The translations under genes were made by a program, and so were the position numbers. Positions 18,463 to 63,567 of a DNA stretch of 64,000 nt are shown one piece after another; position 1 is the stretch's first letter; the number at the start of each line of letters is the position of its first letter. The stretch comes from a virus: positions 1 through 64,000 of IMG/VR virus record IMGVR_UViG_3300035698_035303. The stretch is one strand, 5' to 3'. The notes under the pieces were generated by a model, which was given only the letters and a program-made list of their open reading frames with translations, was not told where the DNA came from and searched no databases.

Positions 18463-18481
18463 AAACACGTAGGAGAATAAA

Positions 18482-18718
18482 ATGACTAAAGCAAAAAAAG
18501 ATAAAAAGCCTGAAGTTATTCAGCTTAATACAGCAGAGAAACATGGGATAACATCTTTATTACAGAGACGAGAAACCGCTGTTAATGAATTAAATCAAGT
18601 TACTCAACAAATTGAGGAATCCCAAAAGTCTATTATAACAACTAGAGGCTATAAAAATATGGATAATTGGCGTTTAGATACTCAGACATGGGTTATGACA
18701 AGGAATGATGAAAAATAA
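18482..18718 (+). CDS. Small coiled-coil protein, unknown
   Basis: A 78-aa protein with a Lys-rich N-terminus and a predicted helical, Gln/Glu-rich centre (LLQRRETAVNELNQVTQQIE) that looks like a short coiled coil, followed by a Trp-containing tail. It has a good ribosome-binding site (TAGGAG) 20 bases after the giant fibre gene. It could be a fibre-assembly chaperone or a small structural subunit; neither can be shown. Confidence 0.55.
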   Translation: MTKAKKDKKPEVIQLNTAEKHGITSLLQRRETAVNELNQVTQQIEESQKSIITTRGYKNMDNWRLDTQTWVMTRNDEK

Positions 18719-18777
18719 AATGGTTTACTATTGCGTTAAATAGCCGTATTAAATCCGTTAATTTTTTCTAATTAAAA

Positions 18778-18813
18778 ACGACAATTTTTTTAATTGAGTT
18801 TATGACAAGATAA
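18778..18813 (+). promoter_or_regulatory. Promoter-like element upstream of the 356-aa gene
   Basis: The 114-base gap 18719-18832 is one of the longest non-coding stretches here and is very AT-rich. It holds ACGACA (18778-18783), then 17 bases, then TATGACAAGATAA (18801-18813). The same arrangement (TCGACA, 17 bases, TATACAAGATAA) occurs at 34679-34713 in the other notable gap. The spacing fits a sigma70-type -35/-10 pair, but a phage-specific element is equally possible. No downstream start point can be shown. Confidence 0.4.
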
Positions 18814-18832
18814 AAAGGGAGAAGGAGTTTTA

Positions 18833-19903
18833 ATGGCAATTTACCGTTTAGATAAACATAATCTTAGAAGAATAGCACCTCTTGCATCTGAGGATTTTGG
18901 ACAAGTTCATAATCCCACTTTGTCTGCAGAGGGATATTATATAGAAGTCGATGTTCATATTCCGCTTCTCCCTCAATCCCCATTACAACCAACAACTTGT
19001 GTAAGTTATCAATTTTTAACTAACCCTGGATTTACTCCGGGGGAATATATTACAGGTGCGCCAGGATTAGGTGTTGAGGAACTTGATTTCACTGCTAATA
19101 TTCCTGTTCCTGGATTTGTCCGGGGCGAGGTAATAACCGATGCAGTATTAGGAACGGCTATTGTCGCGAGAAGATACAGCAATAATAAATATTTAGTTTA
19201 TAATGTTACCGCTGTTTGGGGTGGCGGTGCTGTTACTGGGGCGTTAGGTGGCGGTGGAACAACACCTGGTATTGTTGCTGGAAATGTTGCAGCATCAGCC
19301 AGATTTGCTTCCGTACACCAAAGAAATAATGAGGATAATACAAATTTGTTTTATGAAAACAATATGTTTTTTCCTCCAGGTTGTACCTTAGCAGGCGTAA
19401 CATCTGGAATTATTGCTAACCCTTTAGTTCTAATGGCACCTCAGCTTACTGCTGAGTTAAAAGATATTAAACATCAGGTTGATACTGTTATGTCCTCCCA
19501 AGTTCAAGGAGTCATGTTTAAAGCAGTTCTTCTTTATGGTGATTTGGCGCAATTAATGAATTCATTAGCTGCTGCGGCAGACTTCGGACAACGTCGTGTT
19601 ACACGTGGTGAAATGGCATGGAATGCTGATGTTTGGCAAGGCGTTACTGAAACAACTGCTACAACATCATTTGATATGCAATTAATGCGATTACCAGGTA
19701 ATTATGATTCTACAGTTCCGGCTCCAACCACTGCATTCAATACAGATATACCCGCTTATAAAGATGGAGCGATTCTTCGTCTTTATGTTGGGGAGGCAAA
19801 AGCTGGCGCTGTTGCTGCATTAGTTGAGCTACTTGTTGCTAGACAAATTACTTATAATGAACTTTGGAATTTCCAAAGTGTTATTCATAGGAATGGACAA
19901 TAA
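18833..19903 (+). CDS. Virion structural protein, unknown (356 aa)
   Basis: A 356-aa protein with a strong ribosome-binding site (GGGAGAAGGAG) after the longest intergenic gap of this part, so it may head a transcription unit. The sequence is beta-rich and Gly-rich in the first half (GGGAVTGALGGGG), then more helical (LTAELKDIKHQVDTV; LVELLVARQITYNELW). I recognise no family. The stop overlaps the next start by one base (TAATG). It probably encodes a tail or fibre component, judged only from the neighbours. Confidence 0.6.
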   Translation: MAIYRLDKHNLRRIAPLASEDFGQVHNPTLSAEGYYIEVDVHIPLLPQSPLQPTTCVSYQFLTNPGFTPGEYITGAPGLGVEELDFTANIPVPGFVRGEVITDAVLGTAIVARRYSNNKYLVYNVTAVWGGGAVTGALGGGGTTPGIVAGNVAASARFASVHQRNNEDNTNLFYENNMFFPPGCTLAGVTSGIIANPLVLMAPQLTAELKDIKHQVDTVMSSQVQGVMFKAVLLYGDLAQLMNSLAAAADFGQRRVTRGEMAWNADVWQGVTETTATTSFDMQLMRLPGNYDSTVPAPTTAFNTDIPAYKDGAILRLYVGEAKAGAVAALVELLVARQITYNELWNFQSVIHRNGQ

Positions 19904-20370
19904 TGGCGGATAGAGTATATCATAGATTAGGGCAGACATATATGCTTCAAGTAATACCTATTGATGCATTGGGAGCCTTTTTGTCTGGTCTTCAAATTTA
20001 TGCTTATGTTCAACGCAATAGTGACCAAGCAATGTTCAATTTTGCTGTTTATAATTCGGATCCATCAGGACAAGTCTGGGTGGGTGGTCAAACAGGAAAC
20101 CCTATTCCTTCTTATCCGGATCTCGCAGGGGAACTACCAGAGTTTAAATTAGATACTATATCCCTTGCTTATCAAGAATCTTGGAATTTTCCCGAAAACA
20201 AAGACACAGAGGATTCTGATCCTCAAGTTTATACAATTTGGTATTATAGTCCGGGGTCCTTAGGACTCATAGGTAGTGAACAAGTAGTGTTTATGCCCAA
20301 AGCACTATCGTTCAATGCTTATTACGCTTCACCAGTTAGCGAAGGGCAATTTACGGTTAGACAAAGTTAA
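19903..20370 (+). CDS. Virion structural protein, unknown (155 aa)
   Basis: A 155-aa protein, starting MADRVYHRLGQTYMLQVIPI. It is beta-rich with several aromatic residues and a central acidic region (FPENKDTEDSDPQ). No known domain is visible. It is translationally coupled to the preceding gene by TAATG and lies 12 bases before the LamG protein gene, so it probably belongs to the same fibre module. Confidence 0.55.
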   Translation: MADRVYHRLGQTYMLQVIPIDALGAFLSGLQIYAYVQRNSDQAMFNFAVYNSDPSGQVWVGGQTGNPIPSYPDLAGELPEFKLDTISLAYQESWNFPENKDTEDSDPQVYTIWYYSPGSLGLIGSEQVVFMPKALSFNAYYASPVSEGQFTVRQS

Positions 20371-20382
20371 GGAGAAACTATA

Positions 20383-23300
20383 ATGGCTAATTACCCAGAA
20401 TTCAACAAAGCTTCTATTTGGAATGCATTGTTTGACAGTGATCCAAGTTGGATCAAAAGACCCGCTCTAAGAGGATTATCATGGTACCGTGAGGTTCTAA
20501 GTGGGTCTCATGAAACTCAAGCGCCTTCTGACAAATTGTTGGTAGGTAACAACGATGATCAAGTTTGGCTTATTGATCCAGTGACAAATCAGACTTGGAT
20601 GATGTTCAAACTTCCTGATGCTACTGGTGATATGAATATTCTTATGGCTGCTGCTAAAACAGCCGATAATGTAATTACTGACGCCAAAATGCTAAATGCA
20701 ACATTGTTTGTAACTGTTTCTGGTACAAACGGTGACGGACTTTACGCAATTGACTTTTTGAATGACTCTGCGTTGTTCTTTGACGAAAATGGCGTATTTC
20801 AATATCGTGAACCAATATCAGGACGTGACAGTGGCTTATGGTCACAGATTTCATCCGCCCTTACAGGTATTGAATCAGGAACACCAACAGGTATTGAGGT
20901 ACAAGCGGCTAGTCCCCCTATATTGGTTTATACTCAGGAAACAAAAGAGACTTTCATCAAATGGGAAGGTATCGAAAGTGTTTGTCTTACCCTTAAAGAT
21001 GCTACATTTTTGTTTAGCGATGCTCAGTGGATTCCAAATACATTTAAACCATTAGTTTTTGGAACAATTGCAGCAACGGGCGTTACTGAAATGGGTATCG
21101 GACCAATAATAAATTCCGACTCGTTTGTTGTCAATACATCACCAATAGACATTTCAGATTATGGTGAAATTGCCCTTTTTGGTTTTAATGGTGATTTAGT
21201 ATCTGGAGTTGATAGACCGAGCCTCCACGGATATAATTTGATTGATACTATCGAATCCCATGCATCTGTTACTTATACAAGAAATGATGAGATTAGTAGT
21301 TCTGATATCTCAATTATGACATCAACTGATAGCCGTTTGACTATGACTCATATAGATAATGATAATGAACCAACTATGAGATATATTGATGCTCATTCCG
21401 TTCGCCCTCATACTTATTTCAGTATTGACGCTGATATTTTATGGGCACGTTTCGGTTATCCGTCTGCTGAATTTTCAAATGAGTGGGGTCCATTCGGATC
21501 ATGGATTTGGAATGACGGTACAACCGATATTTCTACCCAAGCTAATGACATGACATATGTTGGGGCTGGAGCAGTATTCGCAAATCTTATTATGCCATTT
21601 ACTGGTATTGCTGGAACTAGCGATTATGGTCATGCTGATAGCGACATGGACTTTATATCCGCTGGCTTTACGTTGTTTGGATCAATACTCCCACAATCAT
21701 TAACAGGAACACAAGCTGTTTTTTGTAAGTACGATGCTGGCGTTGCTGCAGCAGCCGATGAGAAAACATTCAGACTATATTTTGACGGAAATGATTTAAT
21801 TTTTAATGTTTTTGATAATAGTGTTTGTCAAGCTGGTACTGATACCTATCTTGGTAGAAAAGTATCTGACTTGCTTACAGCAGTTACTGGTAAAATTGGA
21901 TTAGATAATTGGTTTCATTTCTTGGCTATTTATAGAGGTAACCAAGGCGATTCAGAAAGCTCATGCGAGATTTGGATTAATGGCCAGCGCATGGATGATA
22001 CTGACGACGAGAACAATGTTGCCAACTTTGTAGAAGTTGAATCAACTGCAACTGATATTTCTATTGCAGCGGATTATGCAGCAGGAGCAGCAGATAATTT
22101 TGCGTATATGACTGCGTCTAAAGTAGGTATCAAATACGGCCCAATCGCAACAAACACAATTGCTCGCTTTTATGAAGCAACTGCCTTTGTTATGCCAACT
22201 GAAACTGGTCGTCATTATGACGCATATTTAATTCCTGATACTTTTTCTGCAGGTAATTCAAGTTGGGATGAGACCGGAGCTGGCCCAGGAAATGCGTTCT
22301 TTGACTTTGACGGAATAAGTACACACCTTGTTGGTGAAGGTGCGACGGCAGCATTTAGACCAACTGACGGTTTGTACACGAGTTTTTGGTTTAAGACGGC
22401 AGACGCCGATGCATCAAACCAAACCTTGATAAGTAAAGGTATCGCACGATATGAAATCGGACTTGGTGACTTAGCTGGTGGTGCCGCAGACAACTTTGTT
22501 CATGTTCAGTTTAATACAAACGCAATTGCTGGTGAGTTAATTTCATCCTATTCCGTTCCTGATGATACATGGGTTCATGTTGCATTATATTGGTCGACTG
22601 ATGAAGGTAATGTTTATTTATGGGTAAATGGGGAAGAAGATTCCACAGCCTTTGCTGGTCCTATAAATAATACAACTGCCGATGTTATTTTTGGAGCAAG
22701 AGATGATGGCGCAGCAAGTTTTGAAAATTACCTTGACGGTTCAATGGCTTGTTTCCGTACTTCAATCCATACAGAGGATGCTGAAATAGAGGTCGGTGCT
22801 ATAACCGAAATGGTTCATAAAGAATACATTGACGGCGTTCGTAATATGGGTGATATTTACAGGTTGGTAGAACCCTTAAAAGTTGAATTGTTTGATAACC
22901 AACAAACAGGCGTTATTACAGGTTGTAGCACAAGAACAAAATATTTGTTTGGAGCTGACGGTCATATAATTGATGCTGATACTTTGGCTGATAATGCTGA
23001 AGATTACAGCATGGACTTGTACTTTAACGAGAATGAAGATGTTATCATATATGATGACGGAACCCGTACAGTTAACACAGTTACTCTTGATTCAAGAGAA
23101 TCAATTGCTTTATCTGAAAGATCTGTTTTAACTAGTGTTGGATTTGAAAACGCAACTACACCTCCTGTTGAAACAGCACTAAGAAGTTATCAGGTTGACC
23201 TTAGTGCGTTTAATTTAACTATTACAAATCCCCCAGGTATGACACTTGAGGATGACTTTACAACTCTTGATTTTGATCCTACAACTGATGAACAAGTTAA

Positions 23301-23688
23301 GTTTGCTTTTAGAATACCAAATGATTTTACTCCAAAACAAGATATGCTTATTGGTTTAGACTGGTTTGGGGACTCACCCGATGCTGGTGATACTACTGTT
23401 GGTTTTAAAATTGAATACAAAGCTGTTAATATAGCTGATGCATTTACCTTTGGTGCTGGGACAACAACAACTGACGTTGAGGAAGAAACAGTATCATTAG
23501 CTGAATCAAATTTGACGGTTCATAATACATTAATTGAAATTGACACCGATGATATGACATCTGACAAAATGGCTTTGATTAGGATATTCCGTGACAATAC
23601 TGTAGCCGCTAATTATTCAAAAGATGTTCGTCTCTTGAAAGTGTATATTGAATACTCAAGCAATCGTCGTGGTAAATTAATATCTTAA
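20383..23688 (+). CDS. Fibre/adhesin protein with two LamG-like domains
   Basis: A 1101-aa protein. Residues about 405-595 and 640-800 look like two laminin-G/concanavalin-type jelly-roll domains: the pattern 'xxWxHxxxxYxxxxgxxxxWxNGxxxD' is visible as DNWFHFLAIYRG...IWINGQRMD in the first and DDTWVHVALYWSTDEGNVYLW...VNGEEDS in the second, each followed by a 'sIAAD/IFGARDDG' strand. Such domains bind carbohydrate in many surface proteins, so a host-recognition role on a tail fibre is likely. The N-terminal 400 aa and C-terminal 250 aa are beta-rich without recognised domains. A good ribosome-binding site (AAGGAG) precedes the ATG. Confidence 0.7.
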   Translation: MANYPEFNKASIWNALFDSDPSWIKRPALRGLSWYREVLSGSHETQAPSDKLLVGNNDDQVWLIDPVTNQTWMMFKLPDATGDMNILMAAAKTADNVITDAKMLNATLFVTVSGTNGDGLYAIDFLNDSALFFDENGVFQYREPISGRDSGLWSQISSALTGIESGTPTGIEVQAASPPILVYTQETKETFIKWEGIESVCLTLKDATFLFSDAQWIPNTFKPLVFGTIAATGVTEMGIGPIINSDSFVVNTSPIDISDYGEIALFGFNGDLVSGVDRPSLHGYNLIDTIESHASVTYTRNDEISSSDISIMTSTDSRLTMTHIDNDNEPTMRYIDAHSVRPHTYFSIDADILWARFGYPSAEFSNEWGPFGSWIWNDGTTDISTQANDMTYVGAGAVFANLIMPFTGIAGTSDYGHADSDMDFISAGFTLFGSILPQSLTGTQAVFCKYDAGVAAAADEKTFRLYFDGNDLIFNVFDNSVCQAGTDTYLGRKVSDLLTAVTGKIGLDNWFHFLAIYRGNQGDSESSCEIWINGQRMDDTDDENNVANFVEVESTATDISIAADYAAGAADNFAYMTASKVGIKYGPIATNTIARFYEATAFVMPTETGRHYDAYLIPDTFSAGNSSWDETGAGPGNAFFDFDGISTHLVGEGATAAFRPTDGLYTSFWFKTADADASNQTLISKGIARYEIGLGDLAGGAADNFVHVQFNTNAIAGELISSYSVPDDTWVHVALYWSTDEGNVYLWVNGEEDSTAFAGPINNTTADVIFGARDDGAASFENYLDGSMACFRTSIHTEDAEIEVGAITEMVHKEYIDGVRNMGDIYRLVEPLKVELFDNQQTGVITGCSTRTKYLFGADGHIIDADTLADNAEDYSMDLYFNENEDVIIYDDGTRTVNTVTLDSRESIALSERSVLTSVGFENATTPPVETALRSYQVDLSAFNLTITNPPGMTLEDDFTTLDFDPTTDEQVKFAFRIPNDFTPKQDMLIGLDWFGDSPDAGDTTVGFKIEYKAVNIADAFTFGAGTTTTDVEEETVSLAESNLTVHNTLIEIDTDDMTSDKMALIRIFRDNTVAANYSKDVRLLKVYIEYSSNRRGKLIS

Positions 23689-23702
23689 ATAGGTGATTTA
23701 AC

Positions 23703-24155
23703 ATGACTGAAGAAGAAAAATTAAAAGAAGAAAATAGGGATCTAAAAGATAAATATAAGCACGCCAAGAAGATTAGAGACCTTCTTGGCGGCTATGAATC
23801 TAATCGCATTCTTAGGGCTATGCTTACGTTGTTTGACGAATTAGATGAAACTGTTATCTTTATTGGGTCAGAACTTAAAATTAAATGGTTAAATAAATAT
23901 GCATACGGCATAATAAAAAAATCAGATAGCCCTTTGAAAAATAGTAAAGATATGGTAGGGATAAAATGCTGGGAATTATTAGGAAATGAAAAACCTTGTG
24001 ATAATTGTATAGCACTTGAGTCCATGAAAAAAAACGAATTGATTAAAAAAGACAATTACGTAGCCCCACTGTCAGGAGGGGAGGCAGAAATAATCGCTAT
24101 TCCGGTCCCTAATGGGGAACCAGGATGTTTGATTATTTTAAAATATAAAAAATAG
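23703..24155 (+). CDS. PAS-domain protein with N-terminal coiled coil
   Basis: A 150-aa protein. Residues 1-28 are a charged coiled coil. Residues about 40-148 resemble a bacterial PAS sensor domain: DETVIFIGSELKIKWLN (core strands), MVGIKCWELLGNEKPCDNC with the 'GxxCyxxx...pCxxC' cysteine signature (C89, C99, C102), then IAIPVPNGEPGCLIILKY as the final strands. In bacteria such PAS domains sense redox state, metals, haem or small ligands. No kinase, GGDEF or DNA-binding output is attached. It sits between a LamG adhesin gene and a coiled-coil membrane protein, an unusual place for a sensor domain. It could be a structural co-option. PAS identity is reasonably firm; the role is unknown. Confidence 0.6.
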   Translation: MTEEEKLKEENRDLKDKYKHAKKIRDLLGGYESNRILRAMLTLFDELDETVIFIGSELKIKWLNKYAYGIIKKSDSPLKNSKDMVGIKCWELLGNEKPCDNCIALESMKKNELIKKDNYVAPLSGGEAEIIAIPVPNGEPGCLIILKYKK

Positions 24156-24168
24156 AAGGGGCGTTATT

Positions 24169-24588
24169 ATGTCCGAACATGACCTATTGGAAACTCAAAA
24201 CTCCACGTTGAAAAATCAAATTAAGCAGCTAGAACGCGAAGCCCAAGAAGAAAAAATACGGGTTGAAGAAAAATTCAGAGACTTAGTAGAAAAAACTTTA
24301 GGCACTTTGAAGAACAAAATTAATGGGTATCCAGAAGACAGCGTTCATAAGCTGGAACAAATTGAAAAAAAGCTTGATGAAAAGATTGACGCTTGTTTGA
24401 AAATAAAAGAAGAACAGATGCCACCATGGTTAAAGAAAATTTTAATTATAGCTGTATCTGCAGTAGCTGTTTCTACTGGTGGACTATTTACAGCATGGCT
24501 GAAGTTTTCTGAGTTTGGGAGAATTATGTCTCTACTTTCTGAGCAGCTCCCTACACTATTTGAACTAATAGAAAAAGCCCCAAAATAA
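24169..24588 (+). CDS. Coiled-coil protein with one membrane segment, possible lysis protein
   Basis: A 139-aa protein. Residues 1-75 are a long charged coiled coil (LETQNSTLKNQIKQLEREAQ), then MPPWLKK, then a single hydrophobic segment of about 20 residues (ILIIAVSAVAVSTGGLFTAWL), then a short amphipathic tail. The topology resembles XhlA-type holin-associated proteins, so membrane permeabilisation or lysis is one possibility; a membrane-anchored partner of the adjacent PAS protein is another. No endolysin is in the window to support lysis. The ATG has a plausible ribosome-binding site (AAGGGGCG). Confidence 0.5.
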   Translation: MSEHDLLETQNSTLKNQIKQLEREAQEEKIRVEEKFRDLVEKTLGTLKNKINGYPEDSVHKLEQIEKKLDEKIDACLKIKEEQMPPWLKKILIIAVSAVAVSTGGLFTAWLKFSEFGRIMSLLSEQLPTLFELIEKAPK

Positions 24589-24597
24589 AGGTTCGTA

Positions 24598-27500
24598 ATG
24601 TCATATATCCATGACCGTTATAATGCAAGGGAGGGGAACTTAGTTCGTTTATTTATGAGATTTTATCGTAATGGCGAATTAGTAGACCCTGATAGTTTTG
24701 GACCAATAATAATAACTCCTGAAAACAATCAGACAAGTGTCCTTGTATCATTTAGTGGTCCAATACGTTATGAGACTGGGACTTATTATGTTGAATGGAG
24801 AGTCCCATCAACAGATGAAAACAACTCGCATTATGATATTCTTTTTGATGAAATTGTTACTAATCAAATGGAACGTAACTTTAGGGACACATGGAACAAT
24901 ATTTCTATTGACGGTCTTATTTTCAATCAACAAGGTAATTTGTTTGTCAGAAGTGAAGATGCAATATCAGATTTTGACGCAAACAACCTACTATCGTTTG
25001 AGTATACTCTTAAAAGTGCTGAAATACCAAAGGGATCTCAAGATTATTTAGTATTTCAATGTGGCGAGTTAGATGGTAAGTTAGTTAATGGAGTTACTGG
25101 CTGGCCCGACGGTTCGGTATCCATTCGCAAGGATAAAAGAACTGTCCTTAATTGGACGCCAGCAAATCATTTATCTTCATCAAATCAATATGCTGTTTTC
25201 ATCGATACTATTGGTATGTCAACAGGGACTTATGAAGCCCAATTAAAATTTGGTATTAATGAGGATTCGATTGACAAACAAGCAGTTATCACTGGACTAA
25301 GGTCGCTTCCTGTAGGTTATCAACCACCACCTGGAACTAACCAACATTTAGTTTTAGATGTTGACGGACAACTTACAGACATAGAATTTGATAGTAGTGC
25401 AACAAGAGGAAAAGTATCTGGTGCCGGAGTTGTTTGGGGCGTATCCGCAATAGTTGAAGGGGCTGCATTATCGGATGGTATAGTGGTTCTTGATGGTGTT
25501 AGTGCTAATATTTTAATTGATGATGTCACTATAACGGTTGTTTTTTCAGGAGCAAATTTACTTATAAGTGATGTTGTTGGACAAATAAATGCAGCAGCAC
25601 TTGCTCAATTAGGGTACGCAGTAGTTGAATCGATTTTAGTATCGTCCCCACCAGCTTATCAAGCTAAAATTAAATTATTTAGTAATTCCAGATCAACTGC
25701 AACATCATTTGGGGTATCCCATGTGAGAGTTGTATCATCATCAAACCCCGCTGCTTTATTAACAGGAACGGGATTTAATGTAGGTGATGAAGCATACGGA
25801 ACAGACATAAATCATACAGTCACAACTGGTGACGTAAATAGTCATTTGCTTATAAAGGTACAGCCTACAGGAGCAATATCAGAATATCAACATGTTGAAA
25901 TACCATTTGGGTATTGGACGCCAGCAGAAATTGTTGATTTTTTAAATGGCGATGGATCATTTTCTCAAGCGGGTGTTGTAGCGTCTCAATATGCATCAAA
26001 CCCTGGTATCGATCTTTATCCCGTTGTTGGATTAAGCATTGTAGTTGAATCAAATACAGCAACTGCCACAGCGCAGGAAACTTGTACATTTACAGAAGTT
26101 GCTTCCCCAGCCACCGGGACTTTAACCCAAACCCAAATTATTACTCAGCTCAGATCTCAGCTTACTATTTTGGGAACTGGCTCATTAACGATGGTTGTTG
26201 ATAATATAACTTTTACATTCGGAGCACCTCCTGTAGCTAATTATTTTCTTCGTTTTAGATCAAGTGTTGTGGGAGCATCATCGACTATTACTATAATAAG
26301 TGGGAATGCATTACCAACTCTCGGATTTATAGAAGGTCAGGGTTCCCAAGGTGGTGACCCTATTATTGGGGCTACAGTCTCATTATTAGGCGATGGGCGT
26401 TTGCAATTTATTGGGGATACAGCAGGGGCGTCTAGTGAATTACAAATTGGCCCATTAAGTGATGGAAGTACAGCAAACGAATTTCTTGGATTCTCAACAG
26501 TTGGGACATCTTTAGAACCCGGGAGTGACGCAGGGTCAGCATTAATTAATGGCGAAACAGGTATCTTAGAACCATTTGCTATAGTTGCCAGTACATCAGC
26601 ACAATTAACAAGCGATGTTCAACCTGCTCCTGGTTGGAACATAGGTGGCAAAAACTTAAAGCTTAAAGTTGACAATACAACATTTACTACTAATTTTATA
26701 GAGGGGTCCACAAGCGCAACAATTATTGGCGCATTAACCCTGCTATCGGTAAACTTTAATGAGGATCATAAATTTTATTATACTCCTTTAGCAGGAAACC
26801 CAGAAGCAGGACGTATTTACTCAAACAGAGGACGTTTTGAGATTGAGTTAAGTGGTTCCTCCGGCATATATTTTGAGCAAAGTCCAGGTATTATGGCAAC
26901 TGAACCAGTTGCTGTTATGCCAACTGAAACTTATCAGTCATGTAGTTGCTATGTTGATGGGGCTACAATATCAGGTGTCTTTGGAACAACAAGTACATTA
27001 ACTGGTGGAACGTCTAGTTCACAAGCTGTTTTGAAAAGAGTTTTGTTTGCTATGACCGCTGGGATGAATGATAGATTTTTGATTTCAGGTGGCGTCCCAA
27101 CTACAAATGGTGGATTTACTGGTGGTGGAACCCCCGAAGCTATTTCAAGTAGCTCAGGTGGTACAGGAATAATCTCATCTGGAAATGTCCACGATGAGAT
27201 GAATTGGTTTCTCGCTGCAGTAAAAGTAACTGCCCCAATCGGAACAATAAGACCTTACATAGCTGGAACAGTTTTAGCTGGTTCTGGTAGTGCAACGGGT
27301 GTTGTACAACATGATTATTATACAGGTCCTGGCTTGTCAGAGTGGATGACATTAAAATCTTATGGAAACCCATTTGTTGTTGGTGGGACATTATGGGCTG
27401 GCGTTGATTTAGCAAGTGCAGTTGATCAATGGTTACCAAATTCAGATAGTTTTACTTTAGACTCATCTGACTTAACTGATAATAAAATGATTATTCAATT

Positions 27501-30500
27501 GAATAGTGGGGCTGATAGGACTGTTGATTTTGATGTATCTTTGAATCCATGGCCAGTATCAAATGTCGTTAGCCGTATTAATAGCGTATTGTCATCATAT
27601 GGCGATCAGGGAAGAGCTGAGTATACTGGCGGAGCAATAAAATTAGAAAGTGACATAACTGGTCCAACATCTCAATTAGCTTTACAAAATGGTTGTAATG
27701 GGTCAGGCGCGAATATACCATTAGGACATGAGGCAGCACCTGTACATTTTGAATTAATGTTACCCGCTGTTGACCCTGATTTACGTATAGCATCTTTTGT
27801 CCTTACAACAGGGTTAGAAGAAGTTTGGGCAGCAAGACAAGGTATTGCTGGCCTTCCAATGCTTGGAACAGCATCAGCAGCACAAGGGGAAATACTTGAT
27901 ATTCATTATTTCCAAAGTGATTTAGCAACTACAGAATATTTAATTTTATATAGATGGGATAATGCAACTGCACCAGTCATACCTGGAGAAAATTTCACTG
28001 TGGGTGGATCGTCAATCGGTAATTTAATAAATGATCTTAGCCGTGTTGACCCCGCTACTCCTTCCACTTACCCACGTGTAGGAGATAAACTAGGTGAAAT
28101 ACTCTGGTGGGATGTTGGTGGTGGCTTACCTTATAATACGACTTTTGCATCGGGCTTTGTTCAATCCTTCAATATTGTATCAGGCGATTTGGACTTAGCC
28201 ATTTATGCGGATGTTCCTCCGTCAGCTATAGCGGGAGGAGTTCTTATTGATTCTGCTATTGGATACTGGTATCCAATTAATGCGGTTGACTTGTACGCCA
28301 TAACATCCACTGGTGCAGTTACATTACTTTCATCTATAGAAGTTGCAAATCAAATTAATAGTGAGGCGGTAGCTTCTGGCTTAAATTATAGTCCAGCAAG
28401 CGTAAGTGGAACAGACGAAGTAATTCTTACAAGTCAAATCGCTGGCCGGTCAAGTTGCACGCTTATATGGGATAGTACAAATAACGCCCATAGCGACCTT
28501 GGATTTTATAAAGATATGCAACAATTAGCTGCATATGAAACAGATATTACGAATCTTAATAGTTGGGGAACATCTATTTTAAATTTCTTAGATGGACGTT
28601 ATGTCGCGCCAAATCAAGATCGTGCTACTGTTAATAAAATACGAAACGCTGGTGGTACGTTAGTTGCATGGGATGTGACTTTTGGTAGCTTTACAACGTT
28701 AGATCCATGGCCAATGACACTTACCCTTTGGGAAGATACTGGAGCTGGTACTCATACAAATGGTGCAGTTGCTGGTAGTGATTGGGGCTATGGTTCTGTT
28801 GGCATTGATGGTAATGACCTTTTTGGTGTAATATTAAACGGAAATACAAGTATCGTTCAAGTATCCCCAACTGCCACGACTTATACGGCATTAGCTTCGT
28901 CTTTAAACTCTTTAGTTGGCGGATTAGCTGCTGGTTCGACTGGTGGATCAAATCCGGAATTAAATCTTGAGACAGTAAGCTCAGGGACATCAGCATCATT
29001 GCTTATATTAAGTGATCTGGGGACTTGCGTTGCTGAATCATTTGGTTGGGGAAGTACAAGGCTATGGCTAAATGATGCTAGTGGTAGCGCGGTTGGTGCG
29101 GGTGACGTTTTATATGATTCATCTGATCCTAATTGGGCTGCTTATATTATGCGCGATGAAAGTGCTTTTACTCTTAACATGAGTAAACCTTATACAAATC
29201 TCCCAAGTCTTACCGTGTTAACAAGTTATTTAACAGGTAATATCGTTAATACATCAGTTATACCTATGAATCCAGTTGCTCAATGGAATTTTGCTGGAGT
29301 AAGTGGCGGATTAGCTGTAGCTGCATCAGTATTATTTACACCAACAACCGACTCATTACAATTGTTTACAAGTAATGGCGAGGAAACAAATATTAGATTT
29401 TGTGATTGGAGTGTTACAGCTTCAACATTTATCGATACAGTTAAAACCCCAACAGAAATAGTAACTCATTTAAACAAACCACGGGTTGGCTTGGATGCAT
29501 TACCAGTTGTATGGCCAGGACTATTAGCTGAAGATTATTTTATTATTGATTCTACAACTGGTTGTGGTGCAATAATAGAAGATTTTGAAGGTCAACATAC
29601 AGTTAGGCTTAAAGGGCAGGTCATTCGTCGATTTAATATTACGAATGGAGGTAGCCCAAACATTGGGGCATTTGTTGTTGGGGATCAAGTTACATGGACA
29701 CACGCAACTGTTTTGCAATACGGTTGGGTAGTAAGTATAACAGGAGCAGGAACACCAAACGGTGAAATGATAGTTTTATCTGACCCAAGTTCAACAACTA
29801 TTTCGCCTGCAATAGGTGACGGAATTATTAATAGAGTTTTAGCCGCAGGAACTGACGCAACAATATCAACAGTTATTACTGACGCTGGAGTTCGTTTCGG
29901 ATTTTCAAACCTTGTTGAAGTTTATCAAATTGACGGAAATAGTGAATATAAAATCCCGATTTATACCGTTGCTAATAATATTAGAACAACCCACGTCCCT
30001 TATGAATATACTGCATCATTAGACGCAGGTGTTTTAGTTATAACCGATAATATGTTCGCAGGTATAGCACCTGATACACTAGCAGCAGTATACCTTGGGT
30101 CAATTAGAGTTAGCTCAACTTCCGCATCATCAGCATGGTATAATCTTGGTCTTGATGCTGGTTATGCAAATATTGGGTTATATGAAAGAATTGGTGGTGG
30201 TCATAATTATGCAGGTCCAACATTTGGTCCAATTGCTTATGGTTTAGCATCATCTCCCCCTATACTTACAGCAACAACTCCATTAACAACCGATTGGATA
30301 TTATCTGTTACAAATTCGATCTTACAATCTAGGTTGGACGGGGATATAGGAACTTGGAAAGAGTTAGACCTCAACGGAGGAACTGACCCAGTTTATAGAA
30401 CATTATGGGATATAATTGACAGAATAAATGGTATGGGTATAATAGTTGGACATATCACATATCCCGTTGTATTTCCATTAACATACGGCGATTTGAAATT

Positions 30501-48753: not shown

Positions 48754-49599
48754 ATGACAGAACAGCAAAGCATTATTGATTTATTAACGGAAACTCGTGG
48801 GGTTCTATCAGAACTTCACAGGTTAGGTCTCCCAGGGCTTGACCCAAGATTACCACCTGAAATATTGGAACATAATCTTTATACAGACCCAAAAGATCAT
48901 ATTCTCTTATTAGAAGAAACTATGGTCCTTGCTCCGTATTTTGATGTTGAAGTCAATGAGTCAATTGACCCTTATGAACAGGCTATGATATTGATGGAGG
49001 CTAACGGGGATGGACGGCTTCTTATGCGTGGGGTTTTCCAACGCGCTGGGAAGAAAAATCAAAATGGTAGAATATATTCCAACGAACTTTTGCAAAGAGA
49101 AGTTAAAAGGTTGCAAGATTCTATCGATGATAACAGACTTGGTGGTGAATTAGACCATCCACAAAGTGCTAAAATTCGCGTCCCTGTCACAAGTCATTTA
49201 ATAACTAAACTATGGATACCTAACAATTCAGATGAGGTTTATGGGGAGTTAACTCCTACTCACAATTCATCTGGTAGGGATTTGTTTAATTTAATAACTA
49301 AAGACAAAATGAGATTAGGCGTTTCAAGTCGTGGTACTGGAACTCTCAAAGAGACAGACAACGGGCTTCTTGTACAGCCTAATTATAATATGATTACTTT
49401 TGATATTGTTGCGGACCCATCAACTCACGGAGCTTTTCCAACTGAAGTTAACAACAGTAACAAAAAAATCGACAAAAAATCAACAACTGAAGAAAAACAA
49501 GATAATAATGATTCCAGTGTAGAATTACTGGAAATAACAACAGAATTAATTACCCGGATGAAAAACGTATTCGGTCAAAGGCCAGGAGATAAAAAATGA
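48754..49599 (+). CDS. Prohead maturation protease, gp21-like
   Basis: A 281-aa serine protease of the T4 gp21 type that removes the scaffold and trims capsid and internal proteins. The family core is clear: RGVFQRAGKKNQNGRIY, then GGELDHP with His135, SHLITKLW, then LGVSSRGTGTL with Ser191/Ser192, and FDIVADPSTHGAF. The N-terminus has candidate self-cleavage sites at EVNE|S (E69) and LME|A (E82), which would free the core domain. The C-terminal 50 aa are Lys/Asn/Gln-rich and probably removed. It overlaps the scaffold gene as ATGA, as fits their shared role. It is the enzyme expected to act on the leaders described further on. Confidence 0.88.
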   Translation: MTEQQSIIDLLTETRGVLSELHRLGLPGLDPRLPPEILEHNLYTDPKDHILLLEETMVLAPYFDVEVNESIDPYEQAMILMEANGDGRLLMRGVFQRAGKKNQNGRIYSNELLQREVKRLQDSIDDNRLGGELDHPQSAKIRVPVTSHLITKLWIPNNSDEVYGELTPTHNSSGRDLFNLITKDKMRLGVSSRGTGTLKETDNGLLVQPNYNMITFDIVADPSTHGAFPTEVNNSNKKIDKKSTTEEKQDNNDSSVELLEITTELITRMKNVFGQRPGDKK

Positions 49600-50897: not shown

Positions 50898-52739
50898 ATG
50901 AGTAACACAAACGCATATCGCCAGGTTGGTCGTAGACTAATCGAAAGATGGTATCCTCTATTAGAGGGTCTCAGGGGCGAAGAAAACATCATTAACATGG
51001 CAATACTCTTGGAAAATGAGTGGCGTGAGGGTGGAAACCTTCTCCCAGAATCTGACCAAATTATTGCTGAGTTCACCGCTTCAACTTTGGCTGGTCCTTC
51101 TGGACAGACCCCACAGGTCGCAACATTCAGACATTACCTAATGCCTTTGATTCGAAGAGTATATCCTAACCTATTTACTAACCAACTTGTTGGCGTTCAG
51201 CCAATGACTGGTCCATCAGCTCAGATTTTCTATTTGAAATACTTTTATTCTGGTATCTCAAACATGCAAGACCCTTGGGGAACAACTCCAACAAGTAAGG
51301 GTGGAACTGCTCCTGGTACTGAGTATGGTAACTTTAGTGGAGATTCATGGTTCGTCGATCCATATTACTCCATGCAAACAGTTCGTCGTGAACCTATAGC
51401 TGCATTTGCAGGATCAGATTTTTCTGGTGCGCCAGCCACAGTAACTCATGATATGGTTGCTGCTAACGGTCAGCCTCCTGTTTTTGATAATACTTCAAAA
51501 TGGTATTTCCTTGCAGCAGATGCTAATACATACGCAGTTGCTACAACTGTAACACTTATTGAGTTAACTGGCTTTGTAAATGGTGTAACCCCAGGTTCCG
51601 CTATTACAGCTACATCAATTGCTACTATCAAAGGTACAACCGCATTTACTAATACAGTAACAGGTTGGATTGATAGAACAGGTGCTTCTAGCGCAAATCA
51701 GTGGAACATTGTTACAAGTAATGTTGGTTCCCATGATTTCTTCTTATCCGCCACAGAATCTGCTGCAGCTGTAACTGCTGGATCTGATTACTTGGGTGTT
51801 AATACTGTTACTTATGACTTCAATATGGAAAACAGACCAGAAATGCCTGAACTTTCCTTAGAAATCGCAAGCGATACAGTAGGCGTTCAGACTCGTAAAT
51901 TGCGCACCGTATGGTCCGTTGAGTCTAGCCAAGATATGAAAGCTATGCATCAAATTGATGCTGAAAAAGAGCTTATTAGTCTTCTAGCTGCTGAACTAGC
52001 TGCTGAGATTGATCGTGAAACTTTGAATAACCTTATCATGAATGCTGGACAAAGACGCGATTACAACTATTCCCATCCTGGAATCGTTGGTGGTTTTGCT
52101 CAAGCAAATGGTGCTGGTTACTTGAACTGGGATCAGCAAGCAAGTATTCCTGCTGCCGGTGCTGGAGCATGGTTCCCCGTACCAGGATCTGGTAATTACG
52201 ATGATCGTAACAAATCATTGATGTATCAAACAATTGAAATGGCTAATGACATTTATCGCCAATCGCTTCGTGGTTCTGCTAACTGGATTGTTACTTCCCC
52301 AAGTATCGCCAGCAAGTTTGAAGCAATGAGTGAATTCGAATCCACTGCAACTTCTGAGACTCTATACAATATTGGTATTCAGGAAAGTGGCATCTTGGCA
52401 AGTAAGTTTAAGTTGATTAAAGACCCTCTATTCCCTGAAGATTTAATTCTCATGGGTTATAAAGGCCCTTCATTTATGGACAGTGGTTACTTCTATTGCC
52501 CATACGTACCAATTCAGCTTACTCCAACAGTTGTTGACCCACGTACCTTCAATCCTGTAAAAGGTGTAATGACTCGTTACGGCAAATTGATGGTTGAAAA
52601 TGGGGAGAGAATGTACGGACTTATTAAGGTTGACAATCTTAATTCAGTTGGTAGTTCAACTCCTGCAGGGTTCCCAATCCAGACCAGCTCGACTGTAAGT
52701 GGCAGCGATATGATCAGTGGCGATACGAACCTAGTATAA
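50898..52739 (+). CDS. Major capsid protein, gp23-like
   Basis: A 613-aa T4-type major capsid protein with HK97 fold. The family stretch is clear around residues 80-115: FRHYLMPLIRRVYPNLFTNQ, LVGVQPMTGPSAQIFYLK. Further matches are ENRPEMPELSLEIASDTVGV with TRKLRTVWSVE, and PSIASKFEAM near the C-terminus. The N-terminal 58 residues are helical and end QIIAE|F, the likely protease cut (T4 gp23 loses 65 residues). Residues about 190-300 hold a beta-rich insertion. The gene has a good ribosome-binding site (TTAGGAG) and ends at a strong hairpin terminator, fitting very high expression. Confidence 0.92.
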   Translation: MSNTNAYRQVGRRLIERWYPLLEGLRGEENIINMAILLENEWREGGNLLPESDQIIAEFTASTLAGPSGQTPQVATFRHYLMPLIRRVYPNLFTNQLVGVQPMTGPSAQIFYLKYFYSGISNMQDPWGTTPTSKGGTAPGTEYGNFSGDSWFVDPYYSMQTVRREPIAAFAGSDFSGAPATVTHDMVAANGQPPVFDNTSKWYFLAADANTYAVATTVTLIELTGFVNGVTPGSAITATSIATIKGTTAFTNTVTGWIDRTGASSANQWNIVTSNVGSHDFFLSATESAAAVTAGSDYLGVNTVTYDFNMENRPEMPELSLEIASDTVGVQTRKLRTVWSVESSQDMKAMHQIDAEKELISLLAAELAAEIDRETLNNLIMNAGQRRDYNYSHPGIVGGFAQANGAGYLNWDQQASIPAAGAGAWFPVPGSGNYDDRNKSLMYQTIEMANDIYRQSLRGSANWIVTSPSIASKFEAMSEFESTATSETLYNIGIQESGILASKFKLIKDPLFPEDLILMGYKGPSFMDSGYFYCPYVPIQLTPTVVDPRTFNPVKGVMTRYGKLMVENGERMYGLIKVDNLNSVGSSTPAGFPIQTSSTVSGSDMISGDTNLV

Positions 52740-56215: not shown

Positions 56216-56491
56216 ATGAAAGACAATAGAACATTAAACGAAGTGACTGAAAATTTTGGGATGAGTGAAGGCGTGGACAAGATTTCTATACCTGGTACGG
56301 ATTTTGTTTTTACTATTCCTCTGTTTTATAAGGATAAACCAGCTAAAAAGAAATCTGGGCATGTCCAACATAAATCGGGTCATCCACGCGGCGAATGGTT
56401 TGTTAACAAAAAAGGTAAAGTGACTTTCTTAGATGATTGGGATAAAGAGAAGAAAATGGCTGCATTCATAACGAAGGAAATAGGGCTATGA
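56216..56491 (+). CDS. Putative capsid-cargo protein with standard leader (91 aa)
   Basis: A 91-aa protein with leader MKDNRTLNEVTENFGMSE|G. The payload is a small basic beta-rich protein with a His/Lys/Gly segment (KKKSGHVQHKSGHPRGEWFV) that could bind metal or nucleic acid. The stop overlaps the ferritin gene as ATGA, so the two should be made together. No family is recognised. Confidence 0.55.
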   Translation: MKDNRTLNEVTENFGMSEGVDKISIPGTDFVFTIPLFYKDKPAKKKSGHVQHKSGHPRGEWFVNKKGKVTFLDDWDKEKKMAAFITKEIGL

Positions 56492-57108
56492 AAGACAATA
56501 GAGACCTAAACGAAATTGCTGGTAATTTTGGAATCAATGAATCTGAATCTGAAATTGATACCGATGAATGCGAAATTGATACCGATGATTTGTCTGAATC
56601 AATTATAGAGGAAGCTTCAACAACTCCAATGCCTGATGACGTATTTAAAGCTTTAAATGAACAGGTTAAGAATGAGTTTGAAGCGTTTTATGCATATTAC
56701 GGTATGGCTAATTCTATGGACTCTATTGGATTTAAGGGTATGGCTTGTTGGCTTCGTAAGTCAGCAAAAGAGGAATTAAACCATGCATATAAAGTTAATG
56801 ATTATATCCTTGAGCGTGGCAAAGATGTGAAGCTAATTCCTATTCAACCGTCAAAAGAAAAATGGAATACCCCAAAAGCAGCTTTTGAGTCAGCAAACAA
56901 GCATGAAATTAGTGTTACTGCTAATTACAATAACTTGAAAAAATTAGCTGAAAGTGGCGGCGATCATCAAACTTGTGAATTCATTAACTTCTTCCTTCGT
57001 GAGCAAACAGAGGAAGAAGACAAAACTTTTGAAATTTGCCAAAAGCTTGATAAAGCTGGCAATGATCCAGCAGCTCTTTTGCAAATTGATAATCATCTTG
57101 GTTGTTAA
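56488..57108 (+). CDS. Ferritin with a capsid-cargo leader
   Basis: A 206-aa protein. Residues 52-204 match bacterial non-haem ferritin (FtnA type), which oxidises Fe(II) and stores it in a 24-subunit shell. All ferroxidase ligands align: E63 (LNEQVKNEFEAF), E96 and H99 (KSAKEELNHA), E140 (KHE), Q173 and E176 (REQTEEE). Unlike cellular ferritins it starts with the shared leader, MKDNRDLNEIAGNFGINE|S, followed by an acidic linker with a repeated EIDTD and a second candidate site, IIEE|A (after E42), just before the ferritin fold. I infer targeting to the prohead and trimming to mature ferritin. It overlaps both neighbours by one to four bases. Confidence 0.85.
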   Translation: MKDNRDLNEIAGNFGINESESEIDTDECEIDTDDLSESIIEEASTTPMPDDVFKALNEQVKNEFEAFYAYYGMANSMDSIGFKGMACWLRKSAKEELNHAYKVNDYILERGKDVKLIPIQPSKEKWNTPKAAFESANKHEISVTANYNNLKKLAESGGDHQTCEFINFFLREQTEEEDKTFEICQKLDKAGNDPAALLQIDNHLGC

Positions 57109-59473: not shown

Positions 59474-59947
59474 ATGAAAGACATTAGAACATTAAACGAA
59501 GTTGCTGAACAATTTGGTATCAATGAAGCTGATGATATTAAGGAAATGGGAGCTAAAGAATTTATGACAAGTATTCGCGATGCTTTGGCAAAAGGAAATA
59601 TGCCTAGAATTGCTAATACTTCTGGAGCAGCCATTCGTGGTTGGACAAATTCAATAGGCTCTACTGGTTTTAGCGTTAAGGATAAGGGTAAAGATATTGA
59701 TATTCATATTGTAATAAGTGGGAAAAAAGCTGGGATTAAATATAAAAGAATTTATGACAGGGATGGAAGTGAGTACGATGAACCCGCAAATCAGGATAGT
59801 CTCCATCCAAAGATTAAACAAATTATAAATAAACTTGGAATTCAAGTTAAGAATATTAGGTCAAGTGGCCATTCAGGGTCTTTTGATGATGATGTGACAT
59901 ATAATATTATTGCCAAACGACCTAAATGGCTTATTTCAAAAAATTAA
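59474..59947 (+). CDS. Putative capsid-cargo protein (157 aa)
   Basis: A 157-aa protein with leader MKDIRTLNEVAEQFGINE|A. The payload is lysine/glycine-rich alpha/beta (SGAAIRGWTNSIGSTGFSV; KDIDIHIVISGKKAG). The leader is nearly identical at DNA level to that of the next gene, although the payloads are unrelated, which indicates exchange of payloads behind a fixed leader. No known domain. AAGGAG precedes the ATG. Confidence 0.55.
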   Translation: MKDIRTLNEVAEQFGINEADDIKEMGAKEFMTSIRDALAKGNMPRIANTSGAAIRGWTNSIGSTGFSVKDKGKDIDIHIVISGKKAGIKYKRIYDRDGSEYDEPANQDSLHPKIKQIINKLGIQVKNIRSSGHSGSFDDDVTYNIIAKRPKWLISKN

Positions 59948-59956
59948 GGGCACAGA

Positions 59957-60343
59957 ATGAAAGACATCAGAACATTAAACGAAGTTGCTGAACAATTTGG
60001 TGCTGTTAATGAGGATTCTCTTTTTGATGCTGAATCAGCTGATGAATGGGAAAATAAAATAGAAAAAGGTATAAAAGTCCCTTTTATTAACGTTGGCAAG
60101 TCTACTCTGGGTGGCCCTAAAAATATTGCTCTAATGATAAGGCTATCACTTGATCCACAAAAAGACTGGAGTAATAATATATTTCATAATTCAAGATATG
60201 CTCAATTGAGTTTATCTAATGATGGCAAACTTGAAATGTTTTCTAGCTCATATAATATAAAGAATATGAGGAAAACAAAGGTAAAGACAGCAGATGACGC
60301 AATAAAGAAAATAAATGTTTGGGCTAAAAAGGAGAATTCATGA
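59957..60343 (+). CDS. Putative capsid-cargo protein (128 aa)
   Basis: A 128-aa protein with leader MKDIRTLNEVAEQFGAVNE|D, one residue longer than the standard. The payload begins acidic (SLFDAESADEWENKIEKG) and continues as an alpha/beta protein with Asn/Ser-rich strands. No motif. It overlaps the next gene as ATGA. Confidence 0.55.
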   Translation: MKDIRTLNEVAEQFGAVNEDSLFDAESADEWENKIEKGIKVPFINVGKSTLGGPKNIALMIRLSLDPQKDWSNNIFHNSRYAQLSLSNDGKLEMFSSSYNIKNMRKTKVKTADDAIKKINVWAKKENS

Positions 60344-61002
60344 AAGATATTAGAACATTAAATGAAATAGCTGAACGATTTAATATTAACGAAGGTAAAT
60401 TTGATAAATTTCGTCGTAGTAATTCAATTCCTACTAATGCGGGAGATTGGACTAAATTAGCTAAACAACTTGACGCTGGCATTAATGAATTGGATGATAT
60501 TGCAATTAGTTTTGGTAGTTTTAAAGATTTCGAAGCTTTATATGCAGCTTATAAAAGCCCGTTTGATATATATAATGAGTCTTTAGCTATAACTAATAAA
60601 CTTATTAAAATAATAAAACAAGTTGTCAGTAGTGCAAGTAATATGAGTAAAGGCCAATTTTACTCATTAATTAAAAAATTGGAAGAAGATACTGAGGATA
60701 CTAATGTTGACGAAGGTATGTACCAAAGATTTCGTCGTGGTAATTCAATTCCTACCAATGCTGGTTACGGATGGGGAGCCCTCTGTAAGAAATTAGATGC
60801 TGGAATTCTTGAGCTTGATGCTATCGCTGATGATCTTGGTTATGAAGACTTTGAAGATCTAGATGCAAGCTATAGTAATCCTGCTTATATTCTGAGTTCG
60901 TCTTTGAAAAGTAGATTTATTAAATCTATTAAAAAAGTTGTTAATAAAGGGAATAACATGAGCCCTTCTAAACTTGAGAAAATGATTATAGACTTAAAAT
61001 AG
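60340..61002 (+). CDS. Putative capsid-cargo protein made of two duplicated units (220 aa)
   Basis: A 220-aa protein with leader MKDIRTLNEIAERFNINE|G. Two copies of one helical payload follow: residues 19-125 (GKFDKFRRSNSIPTNAG...) and 126-220 (GMYQRFRRGNSIPTNAG...). The second copy is preceded by NVDE|G at exactly the place where the first is preceded by INE|G. This repeated site is internal support for protease processing into two similar mature proteins. FRR and RFRR give each a basic start. Function unknown. Confidence 0.6.
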   Translation: MKDIRTLNEIAERFNINEGKFDKFRRSNSIPTNAGDWTKLAKQLDAGINELDDIAISFGSFKDFEALYAAYKSPFDIYNESLAITNKLIKIIKQVVSSASNMSKGQFYSLIKKLEEDTEDTNVDEGMYQRFRRGNSIPTNAGYGWGALCKKLDAGILELDAIADDLGYEDFEDLDASYSNPAYILSSSLKSRFIKSIKKVVNKGNNMSPSKLEKMIIDLK

Positions 61003-61013
61003 GAATATTATTA

Positions 61014-62360
61014 ATGAATTTAAAACAAATATTGGTAGAAGGTCCAACAGGCGTCCCATATACTGAGAAAACATTTAAACAAACTATGAATAGTGTTTTG
61101 ACTAAAGAAGGTCTTGGTAGTGAACGTGGAGCATTGCTTACTACTAAAAATGGTATATTTGTGGAAGTTAGACCTTGTTATGAAGATGGTAAGGCTAATG
61201 TTAAAGTATGGGCTTTTAACCCTGATAAACCTAATTCAGATTATCTTGGACGTTGGAAACATCAAAAGTCATTTAATAATATTAAAGAGGCTTACGCATT
61301 TGCCCAATTACATGTTGAACAAAACATATTAGAAGCAAAAGAAGAAGCTGGTAAATTGGCCCCTAAAGCCAAAAAAGCCTTAGCACTTTGGAAAAAAGAG
61401 TACAAAGAGGCTGAGACCCCTATCAAGAAAAAAGGTGGTAAAACATCATGGGGTCGATCTTATTTCTATAAGACATCAATACAAAAACAAATTTCTGATG
61501 GGTTCAAACAAGAGTTTGATGATATAAATAAATATTATTTCAAAGGCTCTGGCTTTAAAGTAGTTCCTGATGGGTCTCCTTGGGATGATTTTAAATCATG
61601 GCCAAAAACAAGCTATTATTGGGTACCGTTTAAAATTGTATCAGAGAATGGAATATCTGAGGTAAAAAAAAATCCATCCAAGGGAACTTGGAATATGAAA
61701 GGTAATGGGTATTCCGTTGTAGCTTATGTAAGTCAGAATAACGATGGTGAAATGAAATCTTCTTCTATGATGCTTACTCCGGGTGAAGGAGCAACGGAGT
61801 TTAATATTTGGAACGATGAGAAATCGTCTCAAAAAGGAGAGTTCTGGTGGGATAAGAATGATATTCAACGAGGTATCAGAAATCTTAATGCTAAGAAACC
61901 AAATTTTGTAGAGACTAAAGCTATGACATCTGATATGAATAAGTTAGTCAAAATTATTGGTTCTGCTTTTAATGCCTATAAAGTTGATGCTGTGAAAAAA
62001 TCCAAGGTTTCTGAGGGTACTGCTAGAAAAGAAATGGACCCAATTAATAAACAGCCTTTGAAGAATATGATTTATAAAAAGATAACCAAAATTACCAAAG
62101 GCATTTACAAAGATCAATATTGGAATGGTGTTAATAAGATTTGGGATGTATTTAATGATTTGGGATTGGACTGGAATATCCAGAAGGCAGAATACGATCA
62201 CAAGAATTCGCCACCAACTTATAAGATTTGGTACATAGAAATTAACTTTACTAACAAGGCTGGGAAACCCCAGAAGATTTTTGGGAATGTCACGGCGGCA
62301 GGAGCTGGGACAGTCAAGGACCCGCTTGATGCTTATGATGTAAACCTAGTAATGGGATAA
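61014..62360 (+). CDS. Putative large capsid-cargo protein (448 aa)
   Basis: A 448-aa protein with a short second-type leader, MNLKQILVE|G. A further candidate site, NILE|A (E107), would split an N-terminal domain of about 98 aa from a 341-aa remainder. The larger part is rich in Lys, Trp, Tyr and Asn (YYWVPFKIVSENG, GEFWWDKNDIQRGIRNL) and has no recognised domain. It is the largest payload in the cassette and could be an injected enzyme or inhibitor, but no catalytic motif is seen. Confidence 0.5.
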   Translation: MNLKQILVEGPTGVPYTEKTFKQTMNSVLTKEGLGSERGALLTTKNGIFVEVRPCYEDGKANVKVWAFNPDKPNSDYLGRWKHQKSFNNIKEAYAFAQLHVEQNILEAKEEAGKLAPKAKKALALWKKEYKEAETPIKKKGGKTSWGRSYFYKTSIQKQISDGFKQEFDDINKYYFKGSGFKVVPDGSPWDDFKSWPKTSYYWVPFKIVSENGISEVKKNPSKGTWNMKGNGYSVVAYVSQNNDGEMKSSSMMLTPGEGATEFNIWNDEKSSQKGEFWWDKNDIQRGIRNLNAKKPNFVETKAMTSDMNKLVKIIGSAFNAYKVDAVKKSKVSEGTARKEMDPINKQPLKNMIYKKITKITKGIYKDQYWNGVNKIWDVFNDLGLDWNIQKAEYDHKNSPPTYKIWYIEINFTNKAGKPQKIFGNVTAAGAGTVKDPLDAYDVNLVMG

Positions 62361-63159: not shown

Positions 63160-63567
63160 ATGAATTTAACACAACTTCTTCTTGAATCCCCTATGACGGT
63201 CTATCAACTTCGTAAAAATAGCAAATCCATGCTTAAAGATACTACTCTGGAGTATGTTAAGGAAAGACGTGGCAAAGATAAGGTACAAGGTCCTTTTAGA
63301 GAGTTCTCTTTTAAAGCTGGCAAAAAAGATTATAAAACACGTGTTAGGGTATTTGGAGAACAATCATCAAGAAGTCCGGTATGGGTCCATTGTACATGCC
63401 CTAACTTTAGATATCAATGGGATTGGGTTTTAACTCAAAAAGAAAGTAGTACTCTTTTTAAAACTAAGGACAAACAGCCAAATGTTCGCAACCCTAAGAA
63501 GAATAAAAGTGTATGCAAGCATGTTGCCAGCGCCCTTGATTGGTTGAAAAAGGATAGAGGAATATGA
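63160..63567 (+). CDS. Putative capsid-cargo protein with SWIM zinc-finger motif (135 aa)
   Basis: A 135-aa protein with a short leader, MNLTQLLLE|S. Residues 74-125 fit the SWIM zinc-finger pattern CxC...CxH: C78 and C80 in VWVHCTCPNFRYQWDWVL, and C119 and H121 in KSVCKHVASAL. SWIM domains bind DNA or proteins. The rest is lysine-rich. A small SWIM protein behind a cargo leader would be carried with the DNA into the host. It overlaps the next gene as ATGA. Confidence 0.6.
   Translation: MNLTQLLLESPMTVYQLRKNSKSMLKDTTLEYVKERRGKDKVQGPFREFSFKAGKKDYKTRVRVFGEQSSRSPVWVHCTCPNFRYQWDWVLTQKESSTLFKTKDKQPNVRNPKKNKSVCKHVASALDWLKKDRGI

Follow-up and report, generated by a model that had tools for sequence, protein, structure and literature searches.

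A phage protein with a duplicated payload behind a single leader and a predicted prohead-protease site between the copies

An open reading frame (ORF) located downstream of the capsid gene of an uncultivated virus was found to encode a 220-aa protein in which a single N-terminal leader is followed by two copies of one payload. This ORF lies at 60340-61002 (+) of the analyzed stretch of DNA, hereafter the window, which corresponds to positions 1-64000 of a 64,638-base IMG/VR virus record. Its product is probably packed in the virus head. We lean, with modest confidence, towards a cargo resembling the internal proteins of T4, in which the payload was duplicated and the precursor is cut at both of two sites into two head proteins. 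It can reasonably be called a predicted polyprotein.

The leader consists of residues 1-18 (MKDIRTLNEIAERFNINE; 60340-60393, +), an N-terminus common to otherwise unrelated ORFs of the window, and is presumed to be a capsid-targeting propeptide. It ends in predicted cleavage site 1, INE↓G (residues 16-19; 60385-60396, +; the arrow marks the cut), at the same position as INE↓A, INE↓S, and VNE↓A in sister cargo. Payload copy 1 follows (residues 19-114; 60394-60681, +), then an acidic linker, EEDTEDTNVDE (residues 115-125; 60682-60714, +; net charge -7), which lies outside the repeat. Predicted cleavage site 2, VDE↓G (residues 123-126; 60706-60717, +), aligns with INE↓G and has been retained. Payload copy 2 (residues 126-220; 60715-60999, +) runs to the stop codon at 61000-61002. 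A sequence-only reading of this DNA had taken residues 19-125 and 126-220 as the copies; its second boundary stands, but copy 1 stops near residue 114. The predicted products, residues 19-125 (12.0 kDa, pI 5.0) and 126-220 (10.6 kDa, pI 8.7), have calculated masses in line with the 11-12 kDa that it had proposed.

The tandem duplication, also proposed in that reading, was confirmed by aligning the two units. Local alignment of residues 1-112 with residues 113-220 scored 213, against a mean of 27.9 (sd 5.1) and a maximum of 58 in 2000 shuffles; the aligned spans were residues 7-111 and 114-216, with 50% identity. Payloads 19-125 and 126-220 share 47 of 94 aligned residues (about 50%). The block FRR[SG]NSIPTNAG, said earlier to start about five residues after each cut, starts exactly five residues past both E18↓G19 and E125↓G126, and it is 85% identical between the copies. 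Without this block, the repeat was still highly significant (score 135; shuffle maximum 64). A profile built from the two payload units and run on the fetched loci gave significant matches to the two copies and no others. The copies differ by a dS of about 1.3, which is near saturation, and a dN of about 0.42. The duplication is therefore old, and the copies have been under purifying selection since, which argues that both are used. Divergence is uneven: from the site to NSIPTNAG (60382-60447 versus 60703-60768), synonymous and amino-acid divergence are both far below those of the remaining payload, owing to strong constraint or else to gene conversion within this stretch.

The leader is nearly identical in the ORFs at 59474, 59957, 56488, 62631, and 63564 and in others downstream of the capsid gene, and the best pairs in a leader comparison among window ORFs scored 78-89. 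Leader ends of the sister cargo are mostly INE↓A, INE↓S, and VNE↓A, with MSE↓G also present; Val at P3 occurs in VNE↓A and VDE↓A. The INE↓G of ORF 60340-61002 fits an (L/I)-x-E ending at the motif level. A shorter second leader type was seen at 61014-62360 (MNLKQILVE↓G) and 63160-63567 (MNLTQLLLE↓S). The adjoining upstream cargo, at 59957-60343, carries the leader without a clean hydrophobic-x-E-[GAS] site (GAVNED), and its payload matches phrog_3308, a family of unknown function (E = 1.5e-17). Another leader-bearing ORF, at 56488-57108, encodes a ferritin-like domain (Pfam Ferritin, E = 4.2e-34) preceded by three site-like motifs, INE↓S (16-19), LSE↓S (35-38), and IEE↓A (40-43); it is possibly a packaged ferritin/Dps-like protein whose propeptide is cut several times. 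A further ORF, from record position 64051 (L032:1051-1638), starts with MKLKTVIKVEAS and runs off the end of the record.

The head genes of the window, with a prohead protease and a capsid protein alongside the array of leader-bearing cargo, fit the T4 type. The protease, of the T4 gp21 type (Peptidase S77; 48754-49599, +; Pfam PF03420, E = 6.7e-14; phrog_207, E = 2.3e-41), is presumed to be the enzyme that cuts the cargo. An alignment to KVP40 gp21 and the protease of a Microcystis phage shows that it keeps the GELDHP, SSRG, and D-x-V-x-x-PS blocks. We take its catalytic H-S-D residues, after T4 gp21, to be H135 (in GELDHP), S191/S192 (in SSRG), and D217 (before the PS motif). The major capsid protein belongs to the gp23 family (50898-52739, +; Pfam PF07068, E = 4.6e-76), and by this protein two huge-phage genomes without annotation, LR756511 (595 kb) and LR756508 (484 kb), are the closest public records; a terminase comparison likewise puts LR756508 first. 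Since the nearest records are huge, but all distant (28-35% identity), the record is probably a piece of a large phage genome. No promoter or terminator candidates exceeded those of shuffled sequence in a scan.

By analogy with the T4 internal proteins, a first cut after E18 is very likely. Given that cut, a second one after E125 is fairly probable, and its appraisal depends on where site 2 came from. A hydrophobic-x-Glu-Gly motif does occupy the same relative place before each copy, as had been noted. The pattern [ILVM]-x-E-[GAS] occurs in this ORF only as INEG (16-19) and VDEG (123-126), and the pentad N[IV][ND]EG is found at only these two places among the window's predicted proteins (20.7k residues). 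The sequence-only reading had considered the repeated selection of the site at the second copy to be good evidence of function, which was overstated. The pentad codons of the two copies are identical at 13/15 nt (P = 0.02-0.04 against the payload rate), so that site 2 was most likely copied along with the payload. It therefore has no independent origin, and only its retention counts. At the payload amino-acid identity of 0.51, retention of both Glu and Gly is expected in about 26% of cases; elsewhere in the payload, an equally good match (same hydrophobic class, two residues unchanged) survived at 3/17 places (~18%). As an in-payload control, GINE↓L (E50) and GILE↓L (E158), a pair at the same relative place that fits the T4 L/I-x-E rule and is presumed to sit in a helix, was also kept. 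Because of this chance level of 18-26%, and because INE50/ILE158 was kept equally well, a cut cannot be read from retention alone. The site motif would fall at exactly that place with a P of about 0.003-0.005 from composition, a value that supposes no copying.

The claim that no leader is present at the second copy held, as hardly any is left. The leader-like stretch just upstream of site 2 is identical to the leader at 11/24 nt, a weak trace (amino-acid p about 0.02) that 6.6% of local 24-mers equal. We rejected it as a demonstrated leader remnant, which is possible at most. From the contrast between this stretch and both the site (2/15 nt differing) and the FRR..NAG block, the start of the copied segment probably lies at the site or just before it.

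These results bear on a tenable, if doubtful, alternative, a two-domain cargo cut once after E18, in which the 202-aa, 22.6-kDa covalent tandem would stay together and VDEG would be an inherited remnant in a flexible linker. The chance of retaining the motif is in its favor, as is the fact that the two in-payload I-x-E motifs outscore VDE↓G. With a matrix made from the sister cargo sites, which is biased because the leaders that built it share descent, INE50↓L and ILE158↓L both scored higher than VDE↓G, which ranked fifth in the ORF and about 145th of 20,723 window positions. The T4 rule calls for L/I at P3, whereas site 2 has V. However, synonymous divergence is near saturation, yet the site codons differ at only 2/15 nt, and P3, P1, and P1' are all still permissive while the adjacent leader-like residues are gone. 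The small P1' residue, the acidic linker at the exact border between the copies, the low nucleotide divergence, and the P3 Val of sister leaders would likewise be in favor of a genuine site. A cut at site 2 is a plausible prediction, and the position of the site between the copies suggests two separate proteins.

Leader-bearing ORFs of other phages also bear on the single cut. An N-terminal module resembling MKIxxxxLRxIIREE is widespread in viral contigs (at least 120 stretches) and may direct proteins to the capsid in a different group of phages. It heads many otherwise different small ORFs, for instance at 17405-27784 of locus L033 (LR756508.1, 135000-184000) and from locus L035 onwards. Among 308 ORFs of the fetched loci chosen by pattern for this type of module, which are predicted cargo only and may follow a different cutting rule, five contained internal repeats. 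None of these five had [ILVM]-x-E-[GAS] where copy 2 begins, and the order payload-site-payload was found in 0/308. The clearest case, L033:26570-27073, consists of a leader, IGE↓A at residues 39-42, and two 55-residue copies with no site between them. Such duplicated, leader-bearing ORFs lend support to the single-cut alternative. They also indicate that payload doubling alone brings no site and that payload-site-payload is rare in this sample.

It is unlikely that the leader is not capsid-targeting at all, with the repeated N-terminus being a different kind of module, the protein staying out of the head, and both sites left uncut. Exact-pattern scans of IMG/VR did not find this leader outside this genome, which would suit such a module. 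Against this, the S77 protease and gp23 share the gene block, the leaders of many neighbors end in a protease-type motif, the arrangement matches that of the T4 internal proteins, and a similar post-capsid array with short M[RK]LK..L.E leaders is present in a related huge phage. That array, at 42697-48576 of L033, belongs to the 484-kb phage; its genes start with M[RK][LF]K..L, and it looks like a comparable cargo array. Several of its genes have a common YRGT-type payload, and a Pfam search with five of them gave no match. Separate production of copy 2 from an internal start at Met127, whose ATG (60718-60720) is directly 3' of the Gly codon, is very improbable, as this ATG lacks a well-spaced Shine-Dalgarno sequence (TGAGGATACTAATGTTGACGAAGGT-ATG, compared with AAGGAG-AATTC-ATG at M1) and the leaderless product would have no known route into the head.

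Under the favored reading of two cuts, the 18-residue leader would bring the chain into the prohead core, where the S77 protease would remove it after E18, as for T4 internal proteins. The tandem duplication would, long ago, have included the cut-site and, at a minimum, the final residues of the leader. Copy 2 would need no leader because it is carried in by copy 1; any leader-like part before copy 2 could therefore decay, with the site surviving in the acidic linker. A second cut after E125 would most likely follow, and a single targeted precursor would yield two related head proteins. On a slight balance of probability, one leader imports two paralogous payloads that the maturation protease separates in the prohead, so that targeting has been uncoupled from cutting in evolution. 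The steps that we infer are packaging, both cuts, and delivery into the host; judging from its location, the payload would be delivered with the DNA and act early in infection.

The propeptides of T4 internal proteins are 10-19 residues long, and the first 10 residues of IPIII suffice for incorporation; the T4 capsid-targeting sequence (CTS) alone brings fused foreign proteins into the head (PMC9026906; PMC3012670). The protease gp21 cuts after L/I-x-E (PMC9026906), and its substrates gp22, gp67, the gp23 propeptide, and Alt are each cut at multiple places (PMC9026906, PMC5694885). The window cargo resembles IPI, IPII, and IPIII in having a short leader that is common to unrelated small proteins and ends in hydrophobic-x-Glu, together with an S77 protease and a gp23-type capsid. 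In contrast to T4 internal proteins, which have one payload and one cut, it has a doubled payload with a second site between the copies; moreover, its leader sequence is not that of T4, and its payload has no known relative. Searches of PHROGs and tblastn against phages detected no homology of the payload to IPI/IPII/IPIII or Alt. Because T4-like internal proteins have little in common beyond the CTS (PMC3012670), such homology was not taken as defining.

Cutting of one chain at several gp21-type sites is already known, from gp22, gp67, the gp23 propeptide, both ends of Alt, and SPN3US gp53/gp54. Like T4 Alt, with ITE-6 and LTE-619 (PMC5694885), the window cargo has two gp21-type sites far apart in one internal head protein; the second cut of Alt trims its tail, whereas that of the window cargo would part the payload copies. 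Several prohead-protease sites per chain are also found in the T4 core proteins gp22/gp67 and the SPN3US gp53/gp54 propeptides, but there the cuts clear scaffold or propeptide, whereas both pieces of the window cargo look like constrained domains. Phage polyvalent proteins, such as P1 DarA/DdrB, are packaged, multidomain, and maybe proteolytically released, and have been likened to polyproteins by Iyer et al. (2017; PMC5512222). They join different domains, often with a peptidase of their own, whereas the window cargo has one domain twice and no internal peptidase. In a literature search that left most subscription papers outside it, we found no earlier description of an internal head protein duplicated in tandem with a cleavage site separating its copies.

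If both sites are cut, this ORF would provide a natural capsid-targeting leader that imports two proteins joined by a protease-cleavable linker. The needs of targeting (the leader) would be separated from those of cutting (a few residues), which would point to polyproteins as a loading route of T4-type heads besides one leader per protein. The ORF also offers two matched sites on which S77 protease specificity could be measured outside T4.

Relatives of the payload were sought more widely. No homologs were detected in phages by tblastn (E <= 0.01 for the whole ORF, E <= 10 for copy 2), in IMG/VR by degenerate-pattern scans with the ORF and the two-copy alignment, or in GTDB genomes by a degenerate-pattern scan with the two-copy alignment. 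Searches of Pfam, PHROGs, PADLOC, and the PDB gave sub-threshold or chance matches only: a PhoU_div match (E = 0.0038) was rejected as it fell under the curated cut-off, and PDB matches (E > 1) were rejected as chance. Foldseek searches returned nothing below E = 2.4. AlphaFold modeled the single chain with a pLDDT of 40 and, from the two-copy alignment, five helices with a pLDDT of 57; on these models, the payload is probably an all-helical domain of ~95 residues.
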